Assembly (NCBI RefSeq): GCF_001761365.1
Contig: NZ_CP017477.1
Span: 2,904,001 to 2,968,000, forward strand
Reading direction: 5' to 3'
Length of the DNA stretch: 64,000 nucleotides
From: Polaribacter vadi
Lineage (GTDB): Bacteria > Bacteroidota > Bacteroidia > Flavobacteriales > Flavobacteriaceae
Shown piece after piece: positions 20,487 through 34,791 of this stretch. A model generated the notes under the pieces. It did not search any database and was not told where the DNA came from. It was given only the letters and a program-made list of their open reading frames with translations. The stretch's first letter is position 1, and each line of letters opens with the position of its first letter. Both the position numbers and the translations under genes were made by a program.

Positions 20487-23000
20487 ATGAATAAAATTAT
20501 TGTAGTTGGTAATGGAATGGTTGGTTATAAATTTTGTGAAAAATTTGTGGCAGCTTCAGGAAATGAGAATTTTAAAATTACCGTTTTTGGTGAAGAACCA
20601 AGACCAGCATATGATAGAGTTCACTTAAGTGAATTTTTTGAAAATCAAGATGCAAAAGCTTTAGAAATGGCTCCAGCAGAATGGTATTCAGAAAATGGAA
20701 TTGACTTAATTGTAGATGAAAGAGTTTCTGAAATTCACAGAGTATCTAAAACAATAACTACTGCAAAAAATAGAGAGCTGTCTTATGATTATTTAGTGTT
20801 AGCTACAGGATCTTCTGCTTTTGTTCCACCTATAAAAGGAGTTGAAAAAGAAGGCGTTTTTGTGTATAGAACTATTGAAGATTTAGAAGGAATGTTAGGA
20901 TATGCTGCAAAATTAAAGGCAGAAAATCCGAACGCAAAAGCAGCAGTTTTAGGTGGAGGTCTTTTAGGTTTAGAGGCAGGAAAAGCAGTTATGGACATGG
21001 GTCTAGAACCTCATATTGTAGAGTTTGCTCCTAAATTAATGCCAAGACAATTAGATGCTAGAAGTAGTCAAGTATTACAATTAAAGTTAGAGTCTTTAGG
21101 TTTAAATATTCATTTAAGTAAAGCAACAAATCAGATTTTAGGAAATGGTTCTATTGTAGGAATGGAGTTTGGTGAAGATGATGTTCTAAACGTAGATATG
21201 TTAGTAATTTCTGCAGGAATTAGACCAAGAGATGAACTTGGAAAAACTTCTGGTTTAGAAATGGGAGCTAGAGGAGGAATTATTGTAAACAATAAAATGC
21301 AAACTTCTGATGAGAATATTTTTGCAATTGGTGAGGTTGCTTTGTATAATAAAATGATTTATGGTTTAGTTGCTCCAGGTTATGATATGGCTGGAGTTGC
21401 TGTAAATCAAATTATTGGAGAAAAAGAAAATGTAATGCCAGAAGATATAGATATGTCTACCAAGTTAAAATTAATTGGTGTAGATGTGGCAAGTTTTGGA
21501 GAACCTTTTATGCCAGCATCAAAAGGGCATTCTATCATATTTGAAAATAAAACACAACATTTATATAAGAGAATTAATGTTAGTCATGATGGTAAAAGGT
21601 TGTTAGGAGGAATTTTAGTTGGAGATGCTTCAGATTATAATATGTTGCATCAGGTTTATTTAAACGGAATGAAGATTCCTGAAGATCCATCGCAATTAAT
21701 TTTACCTGCAAGTGAAGGAGGTTCTTCTTTTGGAAGCGTCTTAGATTTGCCAGATACAGCACAAGTTTGTTCTTGTGAAAGTATAAGTAAAGGTGATATT
21801 TGTTGTTCAATTACAGAAGAAGATTGTAATAATTTAGGTGATGTAATTGCAAAAACTAAAGCAACAACTGGTTGTGGAGGTTGTAAACCTATGGTTGCAG
21901 ATTTAGTAAATGAAACTTTAAAATCTCTTGGTAAAGAAGTAAAAGAAACCATTTGTGAGCATTTTGATTATAACAGACAAGAATTATATGATTTGGTAAA
22001 AGTGAGTAAAGTTGCTACTTATGAAGAAACTTTAAATACGTTTGGTAAAGGTCATGGTTGTGAAATTTGTAAGCCTTTAGTGGCGTCAATTTTTGCAACA
22101 GTTACAATGGAAACTGCCAATCGTCAACCAACAATTCAAGATACAAATGATCGCTTTTTGGCAAACATTCAAAGAAATGGAACGTATTCTGTGGTGCCAA
22201 GAGTTGCTGGTGGAGAAATTACTCCAGATCAATTAATTGTTATTGGAGAAGTTGCTAAAAAATACGATTTATATACCAAAATTACGGGTGGACAAAGAAT
22301 AGATTTATTTGGAGCTCTAATACATGAACTTCCTTTAATTTGGAAAGAATTAATTGCTGCTGGTTTCGAAAGTGGTCATGCATATGGAAAATCTTTAAGA
22401 ACTGTAAAAAGTTGTGTAGGCTCAACTTGGTGTAGATATGGTATGCATGAAAGTGTAACATTTGCTATCGAAATTGAAAACAGGTATAGAGGTTTGCGTT
22501 CTCCTCATAAATTAAAAGGAGGAGTTTCTGGTTGTATTAGAGAATGTGCAGAAGCAAGAGGTAAAGATTTTGGTTTAATTGCTGTTGATGGTGGTTGGAA
22601 TTTATACGTGTGTGGAAATGGTGGAGCTACACCAAAACACGCGGTTTTATTGGCAGAACAATTAAATGATGAAACCGTTGTAAAATACTTAGATAGATTT
22701 TTAATGTTTTATATAAGAACTGCAGGACCTTTAGTAAGAACAGCTCCTTGGTTAGATAAATTAGATGGTGGAATTGAATATTTAAAACAAGTTGTTATTG
22801 AGGATTCTTTAGGAATTGCAAAAGATTTAGATATCGAAATGCAAGGTTTGGTTAACAAATACGAATGTGAATGGAAACAAGCTGTAGAAAATGAAGAAGT
22901 AATGAAACGCTTTAAACACTTTGTAAATTCTGATGATACTGATGATAACATTAAATTTGTGCCAATGCGTGGTCAAAAAATGCCAAAAGCTTGGGTGTAA
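20487..23000 (+). CDS. nirB: Assimilatory nitrite reductase (NADH), large subunit
   Basis: NirB reduces nitrite to ammonium in the cytoplasm, passing electrons from NAD(P)H via FAD and Fe-S centres to siroheme. The order of domains is FAD-binding (IIVVGNGMVGYKF, residues 4-16), NAD-binding (AAVLGGGLLGLEAGKAV, about 152-168), two BFD-like [2Fe-2S] regions (CSC...CGGC near 428-467 and a CEIC region near 525), then ferredoxin-like and siroheme/4Fe-4S domains. The cluster ligands are Cys643, Cys649, Cys683 and Cys687 (C-x5-C and C-x3-C). Length 837 aa matches the family. It is separated from nirD by 245 bases of repeat DNA. Its promoter carries the operator shared with narK. Confidence 0.95.
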   Translation: MNKIIVVGNGMVGYKFCEKFVAASGNENFKITVFGEEPRPAYDRVHLSEFFENQDAKALEMAPAEWYSENGIDLIVDERVSEIHRVSKTITTAKNRELSYDYLVLATGSSAFVPPIKGVEKEGVFVYRTIEDLEGMLGYAAKLKAENPNAKAAVLGGGLLGLEAGKAVMDMGLEPHIVEFAPKLMPRQLDARSSQVLQLKLESLGLNIHLSKATNQILGNGSIVGMEFGEDDVLNVDMLVISAGIRPRDELGKTSGLEMGARGGIIVNNKMQTSDENIFAIGEVALYNKMIYGLVAPGYDMAGVAVNQIIGEKENVMPEDIDMSTKLKLIGVDVASFGEPFMPASKGHSIIFENKTQHLYKRINVSHDGKRLLGGILVGDASDYNMLHQVYLNGMKIPEDPSQLILPASEGGSSFGSVLDLPDTAQVCSCESISKGDICCSITEEDCNNLGDVIAKTKATTGCGGCKPMVADLVNETLKSLGKEVKETICEHFDYNRQELYDLVKVSKVATYEETLNTFGKGHGCEICKPLVASIFATVTMETANRQPTIQDTNDRFLANIQRNGTYSVVPRVAGGEITPDQLIVIGEVAKKYDLYTKITGGQRIDLFGALIHELPLIWKELIAAGFESGHAYGKSLRTVKSCVGSTWCRYGMHESVTFAIEIENRYRGLRSPHKLKGGVSGCIRECAEARGKDFGLIAVDGGWNLYVCGNGGATPKHAVLLAEQLNDETVVKYLDRFLMFYIRTAGPLVRTAPWLDKLDGGIEYLKQVVIEDSLGIAKDLDIEMQGLVNKYECEWKQAVENEEVMKRFKHFVNSDDTDDNIKFVPMRGQKMPKAWV

Positions 23001-23245: not shown

Positions 23246-23623
23246 ATGCAAGAAGTACTAGAAAAATATCAAACAGTTTTAGAAGCAGATGTAAACGAAT
23301 GGTTTAAGGTTGGTAAAACAACAGATTTTCCAGAAAATTCAGGGGCTTGTATTAAGCATAAAACAAAGCAGATTGCAGTTTATAATTTTGCAAGAACTGG
23401 TAAGTGGTATGCTACTCAAAATTTATGTCCTCATAAAATGGAAATGGTTTTATCTGTTGGTATGATTGGTGACAAAGGAGGGATTCCAAAAGTTGCTTGT
23501 CCATTACATAAAAAGAATTTCTCTCTAGAAGATGGGGCAAATTTAGCTGGAGAAGATTTAAAAATTGCTACATATCCTGTAAAGATTAATGAAGGAAATG
23601 TGTATATTGGCTTCTCGGATTAA
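23246..23623 (+). CDS. nirD: Nitrite reductase (NADH) small subunit, Rieske-type
   Basis: The 125-aa NirD accompanies NirB. It has a Rieske fold with a full set of potential cluster ligands: Cys61-x-His63 (CPHKMEM) and Cys85-x2-His88 (CPLHKKNF). E. coli NirD lacks these residues, so this version may actually bind a [2Fe-2S] cluster. No signal peptide is present, in line with a cytoplasmic assimilatory enzyme. The DUF4202 gene follows after 9 bases, and the histidine kinase gene after that, so these three are likely one transcript. Confidence 0.88.
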   Translation: MQEVLEKYQTVLEADVNEWFKVGKTTDFPENSGACIKHKTKQIAVYNFARTGKWYATQNLCPHKMEMVLSVGMIGDKGGIPKVACPLHKKNFSLEDGANLAGEDLKIATYPVKINEGNVYIGFSD

Positions 23624-23632
23624 AACCAAAAA

Positions 23633-24217
23633 ATGAAGCCAACAAGATTTGAAACTGCCATTGCAATTATTGATCAAAAAAATGCAGAAGACCCAAACAC
23701 GTACCAAGTTGCTGGGATAGCGTATTCTAAAGAATTATTGTATTCTCAAAGAATGACAAGAAAGCTACTTCAGTTTGAGCCTAACGCATCAAAAGCACTT
23801 CAAATTGCTGCAAGAGCACAACATATTTGTCGTTGGAAAATTGAAAGAAAAGAATATCCAATGGATAGAGTTGGATATTTAAAATGGCGTGAGGAATTGA
23901 AAAAAATGCACGCTAAACTTACTGGAGAAATCTTAGAACAAGTTGGTTTTGATGAGCAATTTGTAGATAGAGTGCAGAAAATCATTTTAAAAAAACTCAT
24001 CAAGAAAAACGAAGAATCTCAAACATTAGAAGATGTTATTTGTTTGGTTTTTTTAGATTATTATTTTGATGAATTTGCAGCAAAACATACTGATGAAAAA
24101 ATTATCGATATTTTAAAGAAAACTTGGGTAAAAATGTCTGATAAAGGACATCAAGCTGCACTACAACTTCCTTTTTCTGAAAAAAGTTTAGCTCTAGTAA
24201 AACAAGCGATTTCTTAA
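23633..24217 (+). CDS. DUF4202 protein
   Basis: This 194-aa soluble all-alpha protein matches DUF4202, recognised by the start RFETAIAIIDQKNAEDP, the RMTRKLLQFEP block, the central HICRWKIERKEYPMDRVGYL block (about 63-82) and the late LVFLDYYFDEFAAKH. The conserved His, Arg, Glu and Asp residues in these blocks could form a metal or phosphate site of the HD-like type, which is a guess. The biochemical role is unknown. The family is often next to nitrate/nitrite assimilation genes, as here between nirD (9 bases) and the sensor kinase (10 bases), which points to a function in this pathway or its control. Confidence 0.8.
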   Translation: MKPTRFETAIAIIDQKNAEDPNTYQVAGIAYSKELLYSQRMTRKLLQFEPNASKALQIAARAQHICRWKIERKEYPMDRVGYLKWREELKKMHAKLTGEILEQVGFDEQFVDRVQKIILKKLIKKNEESQTLEDVICLVFLDYYFDEFAAKHTDEKIIDILKKTWVKMSDKGHQAALQLPFSEKSLALVKQAIS

Positions 24218-26928: not shown

Positions 26929-28359
26929 ATGGCAAGTTTAGCACAACAAAAATCAACAAAACTAAGTTTATTTAATTTTAAGAGTATTTCTACTCGCACA
27001 TTTTGGATTACTTCCATATCCTTCTTTTTATGCTTTTTCGCATGGTTTGGTATTGTTCCTTTTATGCCAGATGTTGTAAAAGATTTAGGATTAACTCCAG
27101 ATCAAAAATGGAACTCAATTATTTTAGCGGTTTCAGGAACTGTATTTGCACGTTTACTAATTGGTAAATTGTGTGATAAATATGGTCCAAGATTATGTTA
27201 TACATGGTTGTTAATGTTAGGCGCAATTCCTGTTATTTTATGTGGATTGGTTCAAACTCCTACACAATTTCTTATCTGTAGATTATTTATTGGTTTTATA
27301 GGGGCTTCCTTTGTAATAACGCAAGTACACACTTCATTAATGTTTGCTCCTAATATTGTAGGTACTGCAAATGCAACTTCTGCTGGTTGGGGAAATTTAG
27401 GTGGTGGAGCAAATAGGTTAGGAATGCCTCTAATTGCTGCTGCTGTAGTTTCATTTGGTGTTGCAGATGCTGAGGCTTGGAGATATTCTATGGTAATTGC
27501 AGGTATTGTCTGTTTTTTAATGGGAATCGTTTATTTCTTTTTCACAAAAGATACCCCAAGAGGAAATTTTAAAGAATTAAAAGCTGCAGGAGAAATGATT
27601 GTTGCTAAAAAAGATCAAATAGGTTTTTTAGCTGTTTTAAAAGATTATAGAGTTTGGATTTTATTTGTAGTATATGCTGCTAGTTTTGGAATAGAATTAA
27701 CGGTTTATGGAACCATGGATGACTATCTGCAAAATACCTTTCAATTAGAAAGAGTAACAGCAGGTAATATTGTATTATCATTTGCTTTAATGAATATTTT
27801 TGCAAGAACTTTAGGTGGATTTTTTGGTGATAAATTTGGGAAACTAAAAGGATTAAGAGGTCGTGTTTTATTCTTATCTTTCATTCTTACTTTACAGGGA
27901 ATTATGTTAATTTCTTTCTCAAGTGCAACAAGTATTGTTTTTGGAATTGTTTTATTGATTTTCTTTAGTTTAACCGTACAAATGGCAGAAGGCGCAACAT
28001 TCTCTGTAGTGCCTTTTATTAATAAAAAAGCAATTGGTTCTATCTCTGGAATAGTTGGAGCAGGAGGAAATGTAGGTGCTTTTTTAGCAGCAATGTTGTT
28101 AAAATCAAAATCTGCGATGGCAGAAAAAGCAGCTATTGTTGCTAATGAAGGTTTAGGTGAAGAAGTAATAAAAGCAGCACAATCTGTAGCTTCATCAAGC
28201 GCTGTTTCAAGTGGGTATTTATTAATAGGTTTTGTAGTAGTAATTACAGGTATTGCTGCTTTAGCTATAAAATTTTCTACTGAAGAAGAAGAAAATGAAG
28301 CGCCATCTAATGTAAAAAATACAAGCCCAGAATTAATTCCTATACCTGTAAAACGTTAA
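26929..28359 (+). CDS. narK: NarK-type nitrate/nitrite transporter (MFS, NNP family)
   Basis: The 476-aa, 12-helix carrier has both nitrate signature motifs of the NNP family: SAGWGNLGGGANRLGMPL (helix 5, about 149-166) and GIVGAGGNVGAF (helix 11). A conserved Arg lies in helix 2 (FARLLIGKLCDKYGPR). It imports nitrate or exchanges it for nitrite across the inner membrane. The C-terminal cytoplasmic tail is acidic. It lies between the regulator and the nitrate reductase, 126 bases upstream of the latter. Confidence 0.93.
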   Translation: MASLAQQKSTKLSLFNFKSISTRTFWITSISFFLCFFAWFGIVPFMPDVVKDLGLTPDQKWNSIILAVSGTVFARLLIGKLCDKYGPRLCYTWLLMLGAIPVILCGLVQTPTQFLICRLFIGFIGASFVITQVHTSLMFAPNIVGTANATSAGWGNLGGGANRLGMPLIAAAVVSFGVADAEAWRYSMVIAGIVCFLMGIVYFFFTKDTPRGNFKELKAAGEMIVAKKDQIGFLAVLKDYRVWILFVVYAASFGIELTVYGTMDDYLQNTFQLERVTAGNIVLSFALMNIFARTLGGFFGDKFGKLKGLRGRVLFLSFILTLQGIMLISFSSATSIVFGIVLLIFFSLTVQMAEGATFSVVPFINKKAIGSISGIVGAGGNVGAFLAAMLLKSKSAMAEKAAIVANEGLGEEVIKAAQSVASSSAVSSGYLLIGFVVVITGIAALAIKFSTEEEENEAPSNVKNTSPELIPIPVKR

Positions 28360-28485: not shown

Positions 28486-31400
28486 ATGATTAAAAATGAA
28501 ATCAAAACAACATGCTCTTATTGTGGAGTTGGTTGTGGAATTATCGTAAAAAAAGACATTAACAACAAGGTTTTTGTTGAAGGTGATAAAGATCATCCTG
28601 TAAATAAAGGAATGTTATGTTCTAAAGGAATGAATCTGCATTATGTAGCTAATGATACTTCAGATAGAATTTTATATCCAGAAATGAGATGGAGTCGTTC
28701 ACATCCACGTGAACGTGTTTCTTGGGATACTGCTTTAGATAGAGCTGCTAGTGTTTTTAAATCAATTATAAAAAAACACGGTCCAGATTCAGTTGCTTTT
28801 TATGTTTCAGGACAAAGTTTAACAGAAGAATATTATATCGCAAATAAACTAACAAAAGGGTTTTTAGGAACTAATAATATAGACACCAATTCTCGTTTAT
28901 GTATGAGTTCTGCTGTTGTAGGTTACAAAAAAACTTTTGGAGAAGATAGTGTGCCAATTTCGTATGCAGATATAGAATTAGCAGATACTTTTTTAATAAC
29001 AGGCGCAAATCCTGCTTGGTGTCATCCAATTTTATTTAGAAGGATTGAAAAACACAAAGAAGAAAATCCAAATGTAAAAATAATTGTAATTGATCCTCGT
29101 AAAACAGATTCTGCAAATTTTGCCGATTTACATTTACAGCTTATTCCAGGAACAGATGTTATTTTACACAATGCTATTGGTAGACATTTGTATAAAAGTG
29201 GTTTAATTAATGAAGATTTTATAAAAAATCATACAGAAGGTTTTGACGGTTATGAGAAAATTATTTTTGAAACAAGCCTAAAGCAAGCTTCTAAAATCTG
29301 TGGAGTTTCTCAAGATGATATCAAAAAAGCGGCAGAAATAATAGGTCTTTCTAAAGGGTTTATCAGTATGTGGGCTATGGGTTTAAATCAAAGTGTTATT
29401 GGTACAGATAAAAATACATCACTTTTAAATTTATCATTAATTACAGGTCAAGTTGGTAAACCTGGTTCAGGACCTTTTTCTTTAACAGGGCAGCCAAATG
29501 CAATGGGAGGAAGAGAAGTTGGTGGAATGGCAAATTTATTAGCAGTTCATAAAGATTTACAAAACGAAGAACATAGAAGAGAAGTGGCGCAATTTTGGGG
29601 AGTTGATAAAATATCTCCAAAACCAGGTTTAACAGCAACAGAAATGTTTTCTGCTTTAGAAAGTGGAAAATTAAAAGCAGTTTGGATTGTTTGTACAAAT
29701 CCGTTAGTGAGTATGCCAAATTCTCATCAAATAGAAAAAGCAATGGCAAATTCTAAGTTTGTTGTGGTACAAGAAATTTCTCATAAATCAGATACTGTAA
29801 AGTATGCAGATTTGGTGTTGCCAGCAGCAGCTTGGTTAGAGAAAGAAGGAACCATGACAAATTCTGAACGTAGAATTTCTTATTTGCCTAAAGAAATTGA
29901 AGCTCCAGGAGAAGCAAGACCAGATGTAGAAATTTTTTGTGATTTTGCTCAAAGAATGGGTTTTAGAGGGTTTAATTATAATAATGCATCAGAAATTTAT
30001 GATGAATATGCATCTATGACCAAAGGGACAAATATTGATGTTTCTTTTCTAAATTATGATCGATTAAAAAACGAAGGAACTTTTCAATGGCCTGTAAATG
30101 AATATCGCCATAAAGGAACTCCTCGTCTTTTTGAGGATAAGAAATTTTATACGCCTTCTCAAAAAGCAATTTTTAATGTTCCATCAACTTTAGAAAATAC
30201 TTCTGTAAAGACAAATTCTGAATTTCCATTGATTTTAACTACAGGTCGTGTTAGAGATCAATGGCACACCATGACCAAAACAGGAAAAGTAGCAAGATTA
30301 AAAACACATTATCCGAAGCCTGTTTTAGAAATAAATCCTGTAGATGCATATTTAAACAAGATTTCAGATGGAGATATTACTGAAATTAAAAGCGGAAATG
30401 GTATAGTTAGAGTTCGTGCAAAAATTACAGACGCTATTAAAGAAGGTGTTGTTTTCTTGCCAATGCATTGGGGAAAAGTATTGCAAAGTAATTTAAATAG
30501 AGCTAATAATTTAACAAATACGCATGTAGATCCTGTTTCTAAAGAACCAGATTTTAAATTTACATCAGTATCTGTATCAAAATATAAAAAACCAAAAGAC
30601 AAAATTATCATTGCAGGTGCAGGAGCAGCAGCTTTTCGTTTTTTACAAAATTATAGAGATTATAATGACGTTGATGAAATTCATGTTTTTTCTAAGGAAG
30701 AAAACTTGTTTTATAACCGAGTTTTATTGCCAGAATATATTACAGAAGAACTTTCATGGGAACAATTATTGAAGATTAAAAATTCAGAATTAAGCAATTT
30801 AAATATCAAAATTCACTCAGAAACTATTATTGATAAAATTGATAAAGAAAAGAAGGTAGTTGTAGATTCTAAAGGGGAAACACACACTTTTGATAAGTTG
30901 ATTTTAGCAACAGGAAGTAGGCCTTTTATTCCTAAAGATGTACAAATAGATTTACCTGGTAGATTTACGATGCGTAATAAAACAGATGCAGATCAATTTA
31001 AAAAATATTTAGATGATACAGGTTTACCTCCAGAAGAACAACATGTAGTAATTGTTGGTGGAGGTTTGTTAGGTTTAGAGTTGGCAGCTGCAATGAAGCA
31101 CAAGAATGTAAAAATTACCATTGTGCAAAGAGCTTCTCGATTAATGGAGCGTCAATTAGATAAAATTTCGAGTAAATTATTGTCTTTAGATGTTCAAGAA
31201 AGAGGCATTCAAATTTATTTTGATAATGAAGTAAGTACTGTTTTTGATGATGAAGATACTGGCGAATTAACCATCAATCTAAAAAGTGGAAAATACATAA
31301 CTGCCAATGCAATTGTGTATGCTATTGGTACAAGACCCAATATAGAAATTGCTAAAAATAACGGAATTATTTGTGGACGTGGAGTAAAGGTAAATCAGCA

Positions 31401-32007
31401 TTTACAATCTTCAGACCCAAGTATTTTTGCTATTGGAGAAATTGCAGAATTTAATAATCAATTATTCGGAATTACATCAGCAGCAGAAGAACAAGCAGGT
31501 ATTTTAGCCAATTTTATAGCGGGAGATATTAGTGAAGCTTACAATGGCTCTGTGTTAATGAATATTCTAAAATTCAACGATTTAAACCTTTGTAGTATTG
31601 GTGAAATTACGGTTCCAGAAAACGATTCTAGTTACGAAGAAATTATTTTTACTGATATTTCTAAACGTTATTATAAAAAATGTATTGTAAAAGACGATTT
31701 GTTAATTGGAGCAGTTTTAGTTGGTGATAAAAATGAGTTTGCAGAATTCAAAACCATGATTGAGAGCAAAATCGAAATGTCTGACAAACGAAATACCTTG
31801 TTAAGAGGTGCATCAAACGATAAACCAGTTTTAGGAAAATTAGTATGTTCTTGTAGTCAAGTTGGAGAAGGAAATATCGAAGAAGAAATTGCAAAAGGAT
31901 GTACAAATTTTACAGAATTATGTAATAAAACAGGAGCAGGTTTAGGTTGTGGAAGTTGCAAAACTGAAGTTAGAGAAATTTTGAACAATGCAAAAGTAGG
32001 TGTATGA
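28486..32007 (+). CDS. Assimilatory nitrate reductase fused to FAD/NAD(P)H reductase and [2Fe-2S] modules
   Basis: This 1173-aa cytoplasmic enzyme reduces nitrate to nitrite. The N-terminal 690 residues are a Nas/Nap-type molybdopterin catalytic domain with the 4Fe-4S ligands Cys10, Cys13, Cys17 and Cys45, Cys139 as the Mo ligand (SRLCMSS), and the QPNAMGGREVGG region. A NirB-like FAD/NAD(P)H domain follows (FAD GAGAAAFRF near 710; NAD VGGGLLGLE near 858). A BFD-type [2Fe-2S] domain ends it (Cys1121-x-Cys1123 and Cys1155-x2-Cys1158). In most bacteria the diaphorase is a separate protein (NasB-type), so here one polypeptide can take NAD(P)H electrons to nitrate. Its last 4 bases overlap the start of the next gene (ATGA). 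No signal peptide is visible. Confidence 0.93.
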   Translation: MIKNEIKTTCSYCGVGCGIIVKKDINNKVFVEGDKDHPVNKGMLCSKGMNLHYVANDTSDRILYPEMRWSRSHPRERVSWDTALDRAASVFKSIIKKHGPDSVAFYVSGQSLTEEYYIANKLTKGFLGTNNIDTNSRLCMSSAVVGYKKTFGEDSVPISYADIELADTFLITGANPAWCHPILFRRIEKHKEENPNVKIIVIDPRKTDSANFADLHLQLIPGTDVILHNAIGRHLYKSGLINEDFIKNHTEGFDGYEKIIFETSLKQASKICGVSQDDIKKAAEIIGLSKGFISMWAMGLNQSVIGTDKNTSLLNLSLITGQVGKPGSGPFSLTGQPNAMGGREVGGMANLLAVHKDLQNEEHRREVAQFWGVDKISPKPGLTATEMFSALESGKLKAVWIVCTNPLVSMPNSHQIEKAMANSKFVVVQEISHKSDTVKYADLVLPAAAWLEKEGTMTNSERRISYLPKEIEAPGEARPDVEIFCDFAQRMGFRGFNYNNASEIYDEYASMTKGTNIDVSFLNYDRLKNEGTFQWPVNEYRHKGTPRLFEDKKFYTPSQKAIFNVPSTLENTSVKTNSEFPLILTTGRVRDQWHTMTKTGKVARLKTHYPKPVLEINPVDAYLNKISDGDITEIKSGNGIVRVRAKITDAIKEGVVFLPMHWGKVLQSNLNRANNLTNTHVDPVSKEPDFKFTSVSVSKYKKPKDKIIIAGAGAAAFRFLQNYRDYNDVDEIHVFSKEENLFYNRVLLPEYITEELSWEQLLKIKNSELSNLNIKIHSETIIDKIDKEKKVVVDSKGETHTFDKLILATGSRPFIPKDVQIDLPGRFTMRNKTDADQFKKYLDDTGLPPEEQHVVIVGGGLLGLELAAAMKHKNVKITIVQRASRLMERQLDKISSKLLSLDVQERGIQIYFDNEVSTVFDDEDTGELTINLKSGKYITANAIVYAIGTRPNIEIAKNNGIICGRGVKVNQHLQSSDPSIFAIGEIAEFNNQLFGITSAAEEQAGILANFIAGDISEAYNGSVLMNILKFNDLNLCSIGEITVPENDSSYEEIIFTDISKRYYKKCIVKDDLLIGAVLVGDKNEFAEFKTMIESKIEMSDKRNTLLRGASNDKPVLGKLVCSCSQVGEGNIEEEIAKGCTNFTELCNKTGAGLGCGSCKTEVREILNNAKVGV

Positions 32008-33437
32008 GCAAGCAGTTAAATAGATTAATCGTTAAAGGTGGAGTTTTATCTCCAGGAGAGCTAAAATACATTTGTGAGTCTGTAGAAAGTTTGGGTTTAA
32101 AAACTATTTCTTTTGGCTCTAGACAAGATATTTTATTGCCTAAAAAAGTAAATTCAGAAGACCTTACTCAGTTTGATAAACTAAAAGTTGTAGAAGTTGA
32201 TGAGGTTGGTGTAGAAAACATTGTTTCCTCATATGTTTGTGCAGATATTTTTCCAAGTACTTCTTGGTTAACTGGTGATAGATACTTGTATTTGTTAGAG
32301 CAATTTCGTTCTAAATCTAAATTAAAAATCAATTTAACAGATCCAAAACAACGTTTGGTTCCGTTGTTTACTGGGCATATTAATTTTATTGCTTCAGAAC
32401 ACGAAGATTATTGGTATTTGTACATCAGACTTCCAGAATGGAAAAAAACAAAAATGTATCCTGCGTTAATTTATAGCTGGGATTTAGATAAAATTGAAGC
32501 CGCAATTGAAGATATACTTCAGGAAGAACCAGAAACCATAGAAACTATTTTTGAATTGGTAAGTGATGCAGTTGATACCAATAATAGAACAGTAGATAAG
32601 CCTTTAGAAGTGCCTTTTTACCCTTTTCCGTATTTTGAAGGAATGAATAAAATTGGAATGGATAAATATTGGTTGGGTTTGTATTGGAGAAATAATAAAT
32701 ATGATATCTCTTTTTTGAAGGAAATGTGCGAATTATGTTCAGAAAACAAGATTGGTAAAATATCTATTACTCCTTGGAAATCTTTTATTGTAAAAGGAAT
32801 TCCCAAAGAATCTAAATTAACTTGGGAGAAGTTTTTAGGAAAAAGAGGAATTAACGTAAGGCATTCTATGTTAGAGCTAAATTGGCATTTGCCAGTAGCC
32901 AATAAAGATGCGCTAAATCTTAAAAAGTATTTGGTTTCTAATTTTGATCAAAATGATATTAGCACTTATGGTTTAACCTTCGGAATTACAGATTACAGTA
33001 AATCATCTTATTATTTTACTTCTATTGTAGTTGAAAAAAATAAACAACCAGAAATGATTGGTAATTTTAAAACTAGAGATACCTATAATTTGTTGTATGC
33101 AAAAAACTTCGACCCAAATACAAGAGATTATATTTTACATGTACAAGATGTAGATAAGGTAGAATTACCAGGTTTGTTAATGGAATTAAGTCAATTGTAT
33201 TTTGATCAATTAGGAACAGAAAGAGAAGAAGAAAAAGAAGTTGAAACCAAAAAAGAAACTTCAGAATTAGAAGTGTACCAATGTGCAGACTGTTTAACAA
33301 TTTATGACGAACATTTTGGAGATGCAACTCAAAATATTCCTGTAGAAACTTTATTTAGTGAACTTCCTTCAGATTATGAATGTTCTCTTTGTGAAGCTCC
33401 AAAAACTAATTTTAAGAAGATAATACTGGTAAAATAA
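32004..33437 (+). CDS. Degenerate siroheme-reductase-like protein fused to rubredoxin
   Basis: The 477-aa product has two halves with the repeat pattern of nitrite/sulfite reductases. The ferredoxin-like N-terminal repeat (about 10-50) and the substrate-domain blocks FGSRQDILLP and KISITPWKSFIVKGI are recognisable. The C-x5-C...C-x3-C ligands of the 4Fe-4S/siroheme centre are missing: DPKQRLVPLFTGHINFI stands where the CPN-x-C loop normally is. After an acidic linker (about 405-424) comes a rubredoxin domain with Cys427-x2-Cys430 and Cys460-x2-Cys463. It overlaps the nitrate reductase gene by 4 bases and is probably translated with it. It is likely an electron carrier or scaffold for nitrate or nitrite reduction; this is inference. 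Confidence 0.8.
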   Translation: MSKQLNRLIVKGGVLSPGELKYICESVESLGLKTISFGSRQDILLPKKVNSEDLTQFDKLKVVEVDEVGVENIVSSYVCADIFPSTSWLTGDRYLYLLEQFRSKSKLKINLTDPKQRLVPLFTGHINFIASEHEDYWYLYIRLPEWKKTKMYPALIYSWDLDKIEAAIEDILQEEPETIETIFELVSDAVDTNNRTVDKPLEVPFYPFPYFEGMNKIGMDKYWLGLYWRNNKYDISFLKEMCELCSENKIGKISITPWKSFIVKGIPKESKLTWEKFLGKRGINVRHSMLELNWHLPVANKDALNLKKYLVSNFDQNDISTYGLTFGITDYSKSSYYFTSIVVEKNKQPEMIGNFKTRDTYNLLYAKNFDPNTRDYILHVQDVDKVELPGLLMELSQLYFDQLGTEREEEKEVETKKETSELEVYQCADCLTIYDEHFGDATQNIPVETLFSELPSDYECSLCEAPKTNFKKIILVK

Positions 33438-33516: not shown

Positions 33517-34791
33517 ATGAAAAAACAATACGTAATTTTAGGATTAATGCTTGTGTGTTTCCAATTTTCAAATGCACAGTTTACATTAGATGGAGAGTTT
33601 AGACCAAGAACAGAATATCGTCATGGATTTGGAAGTTTAATTCCAGATGCATCAGATGCAGGTTTCGGAATTTCTACTAGAGTAAGATTAAATACTAGTT
33701 ATATGACTGATAATTACTGGGTATATGTTAGTTTGCAAGACATAATGGTTTGGGGAGAAAACAGACAAATTTTACCTTATGATCAGAATAATTCTTTCGC
33801 CGTTTTTCAAGCTTGGGCAGAAATTAAGTTAGGAGAAAATACTTCAACAAAAGTAGGTCGTCAAGTATTATCTTATGATGATCAAAGAATTTTAGGAGGA
33901 TTAGATTGGGCGCAACAAGGTCGTAATCATGATGCAGCTTTAATAAAATATAAGAAAGACAACTTTATGTTAGATTTTGGTTTGGCTTTTAATCAAGATT
34001 ATTCTAATCCAACAGGATTTGTATCAACAGGTACAGAATATAGTACTACAGGTTTTTTCTCATATAAAACGATGCAAATGTTATATATGAAACAAAAATG
34101 GGACAAATTAACAGGTAGTCTTTTATTATTAAATAATGGATTTCAAAAATATGACACTAATAATGTTGCAGATGGTGTAAGTAATTTACAAACCTTAGGA
34201 ACACATTTAGAGTATAAATCTGGAAGTTTAGGAATTGCTGCAAATGCATATTTGCAAACAGGAAAACGTCAAGGAGAAGTAGAAGTAAAAGGAGCGTATT
34301 TATTAGGATTAGATTTTACTTACAAAGCATCTTCAAAAGTTGGTTTAGGAGCAGGGTTAGAAATTATTAGCGGTAATGATGGTAATGCTGGTGAAACAGG
34401 AGCTTTCTTCCCTTTATATGGAACAAATCATAAATTTAATGGGTTTATGGATTATTTTTATGTTGGTAATCATGCAAATTCTATTGGTTTGGTTGATGTT
34501 CATGCAAGTGCAAATTTCACTTTAAGTAATGCATCAAGTTTAATGGTTAAAGTTTTAAACTTTAGAGGAGAACAAGCATTGGCTAGTGGAGAAAAGTCTT
34601 TAGGAACTGAAGTAGATTTAGTGTATAAGAGAAAATTTAAAGGCTATGCTTTAGTGCTAGGCTATTCTCAAATGTTTGTAAGTGATGGAATGTATGAATT
34701 AAAAGGAGTAACAGAAGCTGAAGCTGCAGGAACTCAAAATTGGGCTTGGGCAATGTTAGTAATTAAGCCTAAGTTTTTAGGAGGTAATTAA
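33517..34791 (+). CDS. Alginate-export-type outer-membrane porin of the nitrate cluster
   Basis: The 424-aa protein begins with a signal peptide (LMLVCFQFSNAQ, cleaved near residue 20) and forms a long beta-barrel with many aromatic girdle residues. The start FTLDGEFRPRTEYRHGF and the block KVGRQVLSYDDQRILGGLDWAQQGR fit the AlgE-like porin family. As the last gene of the nitrate cluster it may admit nitrate through the outer membrane; the substrate is not proven. A strong two-way hairpin follows 25 bases later. Confidence 0.8.
   Translation: MKKQYVILGLMLVCFQFSNAQFTLDGEFRPRTEYRHGFGSLIPDASDAGFGISTRVRLNTSYMTDNYWVYVSLQDIMVWGENRQILPYDQNNSFAVFQAWAEIKLGENTSTKVGRQVLSYDDQRILGGLDWAQQGRNHDAALIKYKKDNFMLDFGLAFNQDYSNPTGFVSTGTEYSTTGFFSYKTMQMLYMKQKWDKLTGSLLLLNNGFQKYDTNNVADGVSNLQTLGTHLEYKSGSLGIAANAYLQTGKRQGEVEVKGAYLLGLDFTYKASSKVGLGAGLEIISGNDGNAGETGAFFPLYGTNHKFNGFMDYFYVGNHANSIGLVDVHASANFTLSNASSLMVKVLNFRGEQALASGEKSLGTEVDLVYKRKFKGYALVLGYSQMFVSDGMYELKGVTEAEAAGTQNWAWAMLVIKPKFLGGN

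Follow-up and report, generated by a model that had tools for sequence, protein, structure and literature searches.

The protein analysed here, RdSiR, can be set beside several kinds of described systems. Assimilatory siroheme reductases, represented by E. coli SiRHP/CysI (1aop), M. tuberculosis NirA (1zj8) and spinach NiR (2akj), are 10-17% identical to RdSiR, which differs from them in lacking the siroheme/[4Fe-4S] cysteine ligands and, going by an alignment that is weak in places, the arginine of the RN motif and a constant lysine in the RKF motif, and in adding a rubredoxin and a further CxxC. Rubredoxins (1rdg, 1bq8) and rubredoxin fusions (class III hybrid cluster protein, 7e0l; flavorubredoxin NorV) have the four cysteines and the fold in common with RdSiR, whose own rubredoxin is instead joined to a siroheme reductase (SiR)-like body. 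Finally, PMC4724949 describes small redox partners that, like RdSiR, are co-encoded with an assimilatory nitrate reductase: NasG of Paracoccus, a ferredoxin that carries electrons from NasB to NasC and NasB, as well as Flp of Bradyrhizobium. RdSiR belongs to a different protein family from NasG and Flp, and the Rieske protein NirD is present besides it; Pfam and NCBIfam scans gave no match to a Rieske [2Fe-2S] domain in RdSiR itself. Judged by title and the start of the abstract, searches of an open-licence full-text library brought up no description of an RdSiR-type protein. RdSiR is a real and conserved fusion of a pseudo-siroheme-reductase with a rubredoxin and, as far as these searches reach, an undescribed one.

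The RdSiR gene and its nitrate cluster

The window is a stretch of 64,000 nucleotides from Polaribacter vadi (NZ_CP017477.1, positions 2,904,001 to 2,968,000). Its cluster runs in the order NirB, NirD, DUF4202 protein, PilJ-domain sensor kinase, response regulator (family assigned by reading its sequence), NarK-type transporter, fused NasA, RdSiR and an alginate-export-family porin. The main features are:

20487..23000, + strand, NirB, siroheme nitrite reductase large subunit, ligands intact
23246..23623, + strand, NirD, Rieske-type small subunit
26929..28359, + strand, NarK-type nitrate/nitrite transporter (310.0 bits, just below the TIGR00886 cut-off of 311.7)
28486..32007, + strand, fused assimilatory nitrate reductase (NasA), with 4Fe-4S/Mo, FAD-NAD module with Rubredoxin_C, and BFD [2Fe-2S]
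32004..33437, + strand, RdSiR gene, ATG start, 477 aa, SiR-like body followed by C-terminal rubredoxin
32004..32007, + strand, ATGA, where the RdSiR start shares bases with the nitrate reductase gene stop
32010..33218, + strand, SiR-like body, residues 3-405
32121..32126, + strand, R40-Q41, aligned to the TTR motif of NirA/SiR, invariant
32727..32738, + strand, C242-x2-C245, CxxC beyond the rubredoxin, in 67 of 67 members
32769..32780, + strand, T256-P257-W258-K259, aligned to the T-x-x-Q motif of the second half domain
32859..32885, + strand, R286-H287-x3-E291-L-N293-W294 motif, in the region where the enzymes carry their C-x5-C pair
33276..33413, + strand, rubredoxin domain, residues 425-470 (Pfam)

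The open reading frame at 32004-33437 is genuine and complete, and the four-base overlap with the nitrate reductase gene reported by the first-pass annotation is seen as the ATGA. The C-terminal rubredoxin named there is likewise present: PF00301 matches residues 425-470 (E=1.5e-12), with all four cysteines (Cys427/430/460/463) in the two CxxC knuckles of the fold. By Pfam scan this is the only rubredoxin domain in the P. vadi genome. Its metal is predicted to be iron, and may instead be zinc.

NasA is 1173 aa long and carries, in order, a 4Fe-4S/Mo part, a NirB-like FAD/NAD module with Rubredoxin_C (73 bits; a domain known from rubredoxin reductases), and a BFD [2Fe-2S] domain. None of the NCBIfam nitrate reductase models reached its cut-off for this protein (NasC 541 of 1100 bits, Fdh-alpha 590 of 666), and its identity as a nitrate reductase rests on its neighbours and on the RefSeq naming of relatives.

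Predicted fold, lost ligands and conserved residues

Structure prediction gives RdSiR the full SiR fold, with doubled ferredoxin-like/NIR_SIR halves. At the sequence level PF03460 (NIR_SIR_ferr) matches in two stretches (E=1.1e-8; 35.1 bits against a 24-bit cut-off), and the NIR_SIR 4Fe-4S domain gave no Pfam match. A six-frame PF03460 scan of the whole P. vadi genome returned three matches, two of them the half domains of a separate, intact sulfite reductase and the third within NirB, and missed RdSiR. Sequence therefore gives only a weak signal for either RdSiR half domain, and the case for the full fold depends on structure prediction. In hhalign comparisons the full-length family profile reached E=2e-6 and 79% probability; the C-terminal half alone against the C-terminal halves of NirB and NirA (E=0.018, 2.6%) and a distant RdSiR branch against NirA (E=0.013, 3.4%) were unsupported. 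The kinship to siroheme reductases thus comes mainly from predicted folds, and at 10-17% identity an origin from a NirA of the same operon is conjectural.

Beyond the rubredoxin, RdSiR has only the cysteines C24, C79, C242 and C245, which form neither a C-x5-C nor a C-x3-C ligand pair. As controls, both pairs are found in NirB of the window and in the separate intact sulfite reductase of P. vadi (697 aa), whose gene adjoins PAPS-reductase, tetrapyrrole-methylase and siroheme-synthesis genes. The earlier description of a siroheme reductase fold stripped of its metal ligands is supported by the missing pairs, the predicted fold and the PF03460 match. A search for an intact ligand set elsewhere in the protein found no other conserved set among the aligned members.

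Our family alignment comprises 67 distinct members (49 genome-search loci, the window included, and 18 others) at 32-91% identity, across which the domain arrangement is kept, more than chance would explain. Forty positions do not vary at all; they include R40, Q41, N72, S76, C242, C245, T256, P257, K259 and E291 as well as all four cysteines of the rubredoxin. W258, R286, H287, N293 and W294 are each found in 66 members, with Tyr at position 287 in one. The 242/245 pair and the rubredoxin set are the only conserved Cys columns. In a partly overlapping set of 74 sequences, R286, H287, E291, W294 and C245 are present in all, C242 and R40 in 73 and N293 in 61. Set against the active-site basic residues of CysI (R83, R153, K215 and K217), RdSiR keeps R40 and mostly K/R108, in an alignment that is weak in places; that alignment, with the same weakness, shows mostly E/N/Q/P instead of the RN arginine (position 71), a retained N72 and a variable RKF lysine (position 106). 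The first-pass annotation had gone on to suggest a dead reductase, which holds for canonical siroheme/4Fe-4S chemistry only: on the side that faces the cofactor in the enzymes, the motifs have been conserved rather than left to decay. Since these motifs are among the best conserved of the protein, a putative ligand may still be bound there. Neither the invariant CxxC nor the conserved siroheme-facing motifs figured in that annotation.

Some members depart from the common architecture. In L046 and L049 the four-cysteine rubredoxin knuckle is shortened. The member in genome G318 (L080:63-1553), at a contig edge, consists of the RdSiR body and stops before any rubredoxin, and searches of that genome turned up no NirB and no fused NasA. 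Fourteen of the 67 (L025-L036, L065, L066; the last two from Flavobacterium species) have two extra Cys after the CxxC, giving C-x2-C-x2-C-x5-C.

Relatives are numerous: 2554 of 7996 scored candidate proteins matched at E<=0.001, some of which may share the rubredoxin part only, and the best 120 of them are 76-90% identical. Names among the matches listed include Polaribacter, Olleya and other Flavobacteriaceae, annotated as 'rubredoxin', and a second branch, reached through a distant member, includes Flavisolibacter, Ginsengibacter and a mine drainage metagenome. Among 72,556 plasmid records four match, all from Bacteroidota (two Persicobacter, Hymenobacter and Spirosoma), the phylum covered by our whole-genome searches. 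Two weaker similarities came to nothing: CobG precorrin-3B synthase (TIGR02435) was rejected, its match to residues 213-285 scoring 13.1 against a cut-off of 234.8 bits in a different gene setting, and DUF7862 matched at E=0.11 (Pfam).

Linkage, co-occurrence and matched divergence

Close coupling to the nitrate reductase, proposed from the single overlap, recurs across 78 RdSiR loci (18 from one search and 60 from another). The flavin part of a fused NasA lies upstream on the same strand in 77, the exception being the G318 locus at its contig edge; a lack of this gene order in relatives had been set beforehand as a refuting observation. The distance from NasA stop to RdSiR start is negative in 39 of the 77, 0-60 nt in 30, 61-300 nt in six and above 300 nt in two, so that 69 overlap or lie within 60 nt. 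Both of the widest gaps contain an open reading frame, unnamed in L079 and Nitr_red_assoc (PF09655) in L077 (10796-11299, genome G286), the latter seen in 1 of 99 fetched loci and not in the window. On plasmids, the order is nirD, MFS, nitrate reductase, 'rubredoxin', cobA in Hymenobacter volaticus and nirD, nirB, cobA, porin, NarK, nitrate reductase, 'rubredoxin' in Spirosoma oryzicola.

Among 199 Flavobacteriaceae genomes, RdSiR, fused NasA and NirB are each found in 46, and these are the same 46 (identity checked for 45 plus the window genome). Across 392 Bacteroidota genomes, 105 matched RdSiR, 74 of them by the rubredoxin part only; the RdSiR body is present in 31, NirB in 30 and full-length fused NasA in 35. 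The 30 NirB genomes are the RdSiR genomes minus G318, and no NirB genome in either sample (30 of 30 and 46 of 46) is without RdSiR and fused NasA. In the genomes examined, RdSiR goes with a single type of module for nitrate assimilation, and it looks like a dedicated nitrate-use helper in many Bacteroidota. Such a pattern would also arise if one module were inherited as a block. The module as a whole is dispensable within the genus, because G131 (same genus, 2.6 Mb) has none of the three genes.

Five genomes (G408, G246, G206, G345, G369) have fused NasA without RdSiR, and NirB is missing there too. The family HMM found no hidden RdSiR below E=0.1 in these operons; in the same search the strong match was the G318 member (L080/L136), and a genome's own intact sulfite reductase matched at E=0.0059. 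Each of the five has a gene for a NirA-type protein close to NasA (Pfam), along with genes for an FAD/NAD reductase and a flavodoxin (Pfam-confirmed in three, read by eye in two). These genomes are from other families, so that phylogeny is confounded with function. In the nitrate operons of these five genomes (L131-L135) the NasA partners NirA, flavodoxin and FAD/NAD reductase all start with a similar F-x-x-E/x-Q-R/K-x-W/Y-L-x-G/D-F stretch, perhaps a docking motif common to them. In G206 a globin (PF00042, E=1.2e-13; L133:7787-8230) directly precedes the fused NasA, like Bjgb in Bradyrhizobium; globin as an RdSiR substitute was rejected, being present in only one of the five.

The divergence of RdSiR follows that of NasA more closely than that of NirB. 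Bit scores to the window proteins over 45 genomes correlate at 0.97 with NasA and 0.71 with NirB (Pearson; Spearman 0.76 and 0.68), and distances over the 26 loci with all genes give 0.97 for both NasA parts and 0.67 for the siroheme half of NirB. Within 11 loci of the Polaribacter type, NasA scores 0.75-0.80 and NirB -0.09, the latter because two NirB types (93% or 76-77% to the window NirB) are exchanged separately; in L050-L064 the two types of NirB/NirD are swapped independently of NasA-RdSiR. Physical linkage alone could be the source of the match with NasA. RdSiR also diverges faster (mean distance 0.42, against 0.24-0.32 for NasA and NirB), as would be expected of an accessory protein rather than of a subunit at the redox core.

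Candidate roles of RdSiR

We tentatively propose, as a reading that may well prove wrong, that RdSiR serves the fused NasA of Bacteroidota as a dedicated accessory subunit. A nitrite/sulfite-reductase-fold protein would have lost its siroheme/[4Fe-4S] ligands and been retained as a docking body with a C-terminal rubredoxin; co-produced with NasA, RdSiR would seat this body on it and exchange electrons between the rubredoxin iron and the NADH-FAD-[2Fe-2S] module, acting as an adaptor or buffer that links NADH oxidation with the Mo site and possibly with NirB. The predicted fold and ligand loss, NasA directly upstream in nearly every locus, the shared set of 46 genomes and divergence that tracks NasA over NirB count for the proposal. 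That the genome's sole Pfam rubredoxin is translated with a flavin module resembling rubredoxin reductase suggests, by analogy, electron exchange with NasA, and the ferredoxin NasG, placed between NasB and NasC in PMC4724949, is a functional precedent. Against an adaptor, a nitrate reductase that draws on NADH and has flavin, Fe-S and Mo centres of its own ought to work without any additional redox partner, and by its domains NasA looks self-sufficient, with a complete NADH-FAD-[2Fe-2S]-[4Fe-4S]-Mo chain. Fused NasA is moreover kept without RdSiR in five genomes; Rubredoxin_C is no proof of a rubredoxin partner, because NasA of RdSiR-less G206 has it too (49.6 bits); the rubredoxin is shortened in two members and missing in the G318 member; and RdSiR diverges faster than the enzymes. 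Linkage, co-occurrence and matched divergence could also all stem from one jointly inherited module.

A part in maturation or assembly is unlikely on its own terms, yet nearly as likely as electron exchange with NasA. Here RdSiR would hold apo-NasA (or NirB) while a cofactor is inserted, its CxxC and knuckle handling metal or sulfur or binding a structural zinc and its basic pocket binding siroheme, a pterin or another such cofactor. The invariant C242/C245, the conserved former cofactor side, the faster divergence relative to the enzymes and the shortened knuckles all fit, as does the siroheme-synthesis gene cobA, adjoining RdSiR on the Hymenobacter plasmid and near it on that of Spirosoma; the five RdSiR-less NasA genomes do not. 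FdhD is a Mo-enzyme factor of the CxxC type, and its replacement by the RdSiR CxxC was rejected: FdhD occurs in 13 of the 31 RdSiR genomes (the window's included) and is absent from four of the five without RdSiR, which is no replacement pattern. Also counted against maturation is that G286, in its single locus, has the other-family factor Nitr_red_assoc alongside RdSiR. RdSiR itself matched none of the FdhD, NarJ and Nitr_red_assoc families (Pfam and NCBIfam, E<=1), and its role may be analogous.

A pure scaffold, the body docking NasA and NirB(D) for nitrite handover and the rubredoxin serving only as a structural metal knuckle, is improbable. It would account for NirB accompanying RdSiR in 30 of the 31 phylum-sample genomes, and for the absence of RdSiR from the five NirB-less genomes, which however come from other families; the independent exchange of two NirB types in the 11 Polaribacter-type loci is an ill fit for a closely matched NirB interface. 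We give very little credence to RdSiR as a still active redox enzyme, in which His287 would hold a siroheme or haem, no [4Fe-4S] cluster would be present and the rubredoxin would supply the electrons, for example to remove NO or nitrite that the nitrate reductase forms. H287, within the region of the lost C-x5-C, is nearly universal, and R40 and N72 are kept, but RdSiR lacks both Cys pairs and, in the partly weak alignment, the Arg of RN and a constant RKF lysine; residue 287 is Tyr in one member, and there is no direct sign of a tetrapyrrole. PMC4724949 has NasC making NO and co-encoded with a globin and globin reductase in Bradyrhizobium. The RdSiR-less operon of G206 has its globin and the window genome no Pfam globin match, which would agree with such a function; globin is nevertheless present in 7 of the 31 RdSiR genomes. 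A new class of siroheme-fold redox protein, in which the NasA flavin module would reduce a His287 tetrapyrrole through the fused rubredoxin and so guard nitrate assimilation against NO or nitrite, is a long shot.

If RdSiR is indeed an accessory subunit of NasA, a siroheme reductase has turned pseudoenzyme and been incorporated into a nitrate reductase, and knocking out this one gene in common marine flavobacteria would show whether nitrate assimilation has a part that has so far been missed. A large protein family, some of whose 2554 matching proteins may share the rubredoxin part alone, would also be renamed, the database name being just 'rubredoxin' in a module that every NirB genome of both samples contains.

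Two further genes accompany the module. The DUF4202 protein (window 23633-24217) recurs near full length in the nitrate cluster of 33 further loci and stands beside RdSiR and cobA in Hymenobacter. The alginate-export-family porin (window 33517-34791), which adjoins RdSiR, lies in many loci beside NarK/NasA and is perhaps an outer-membrane nitrate channel.
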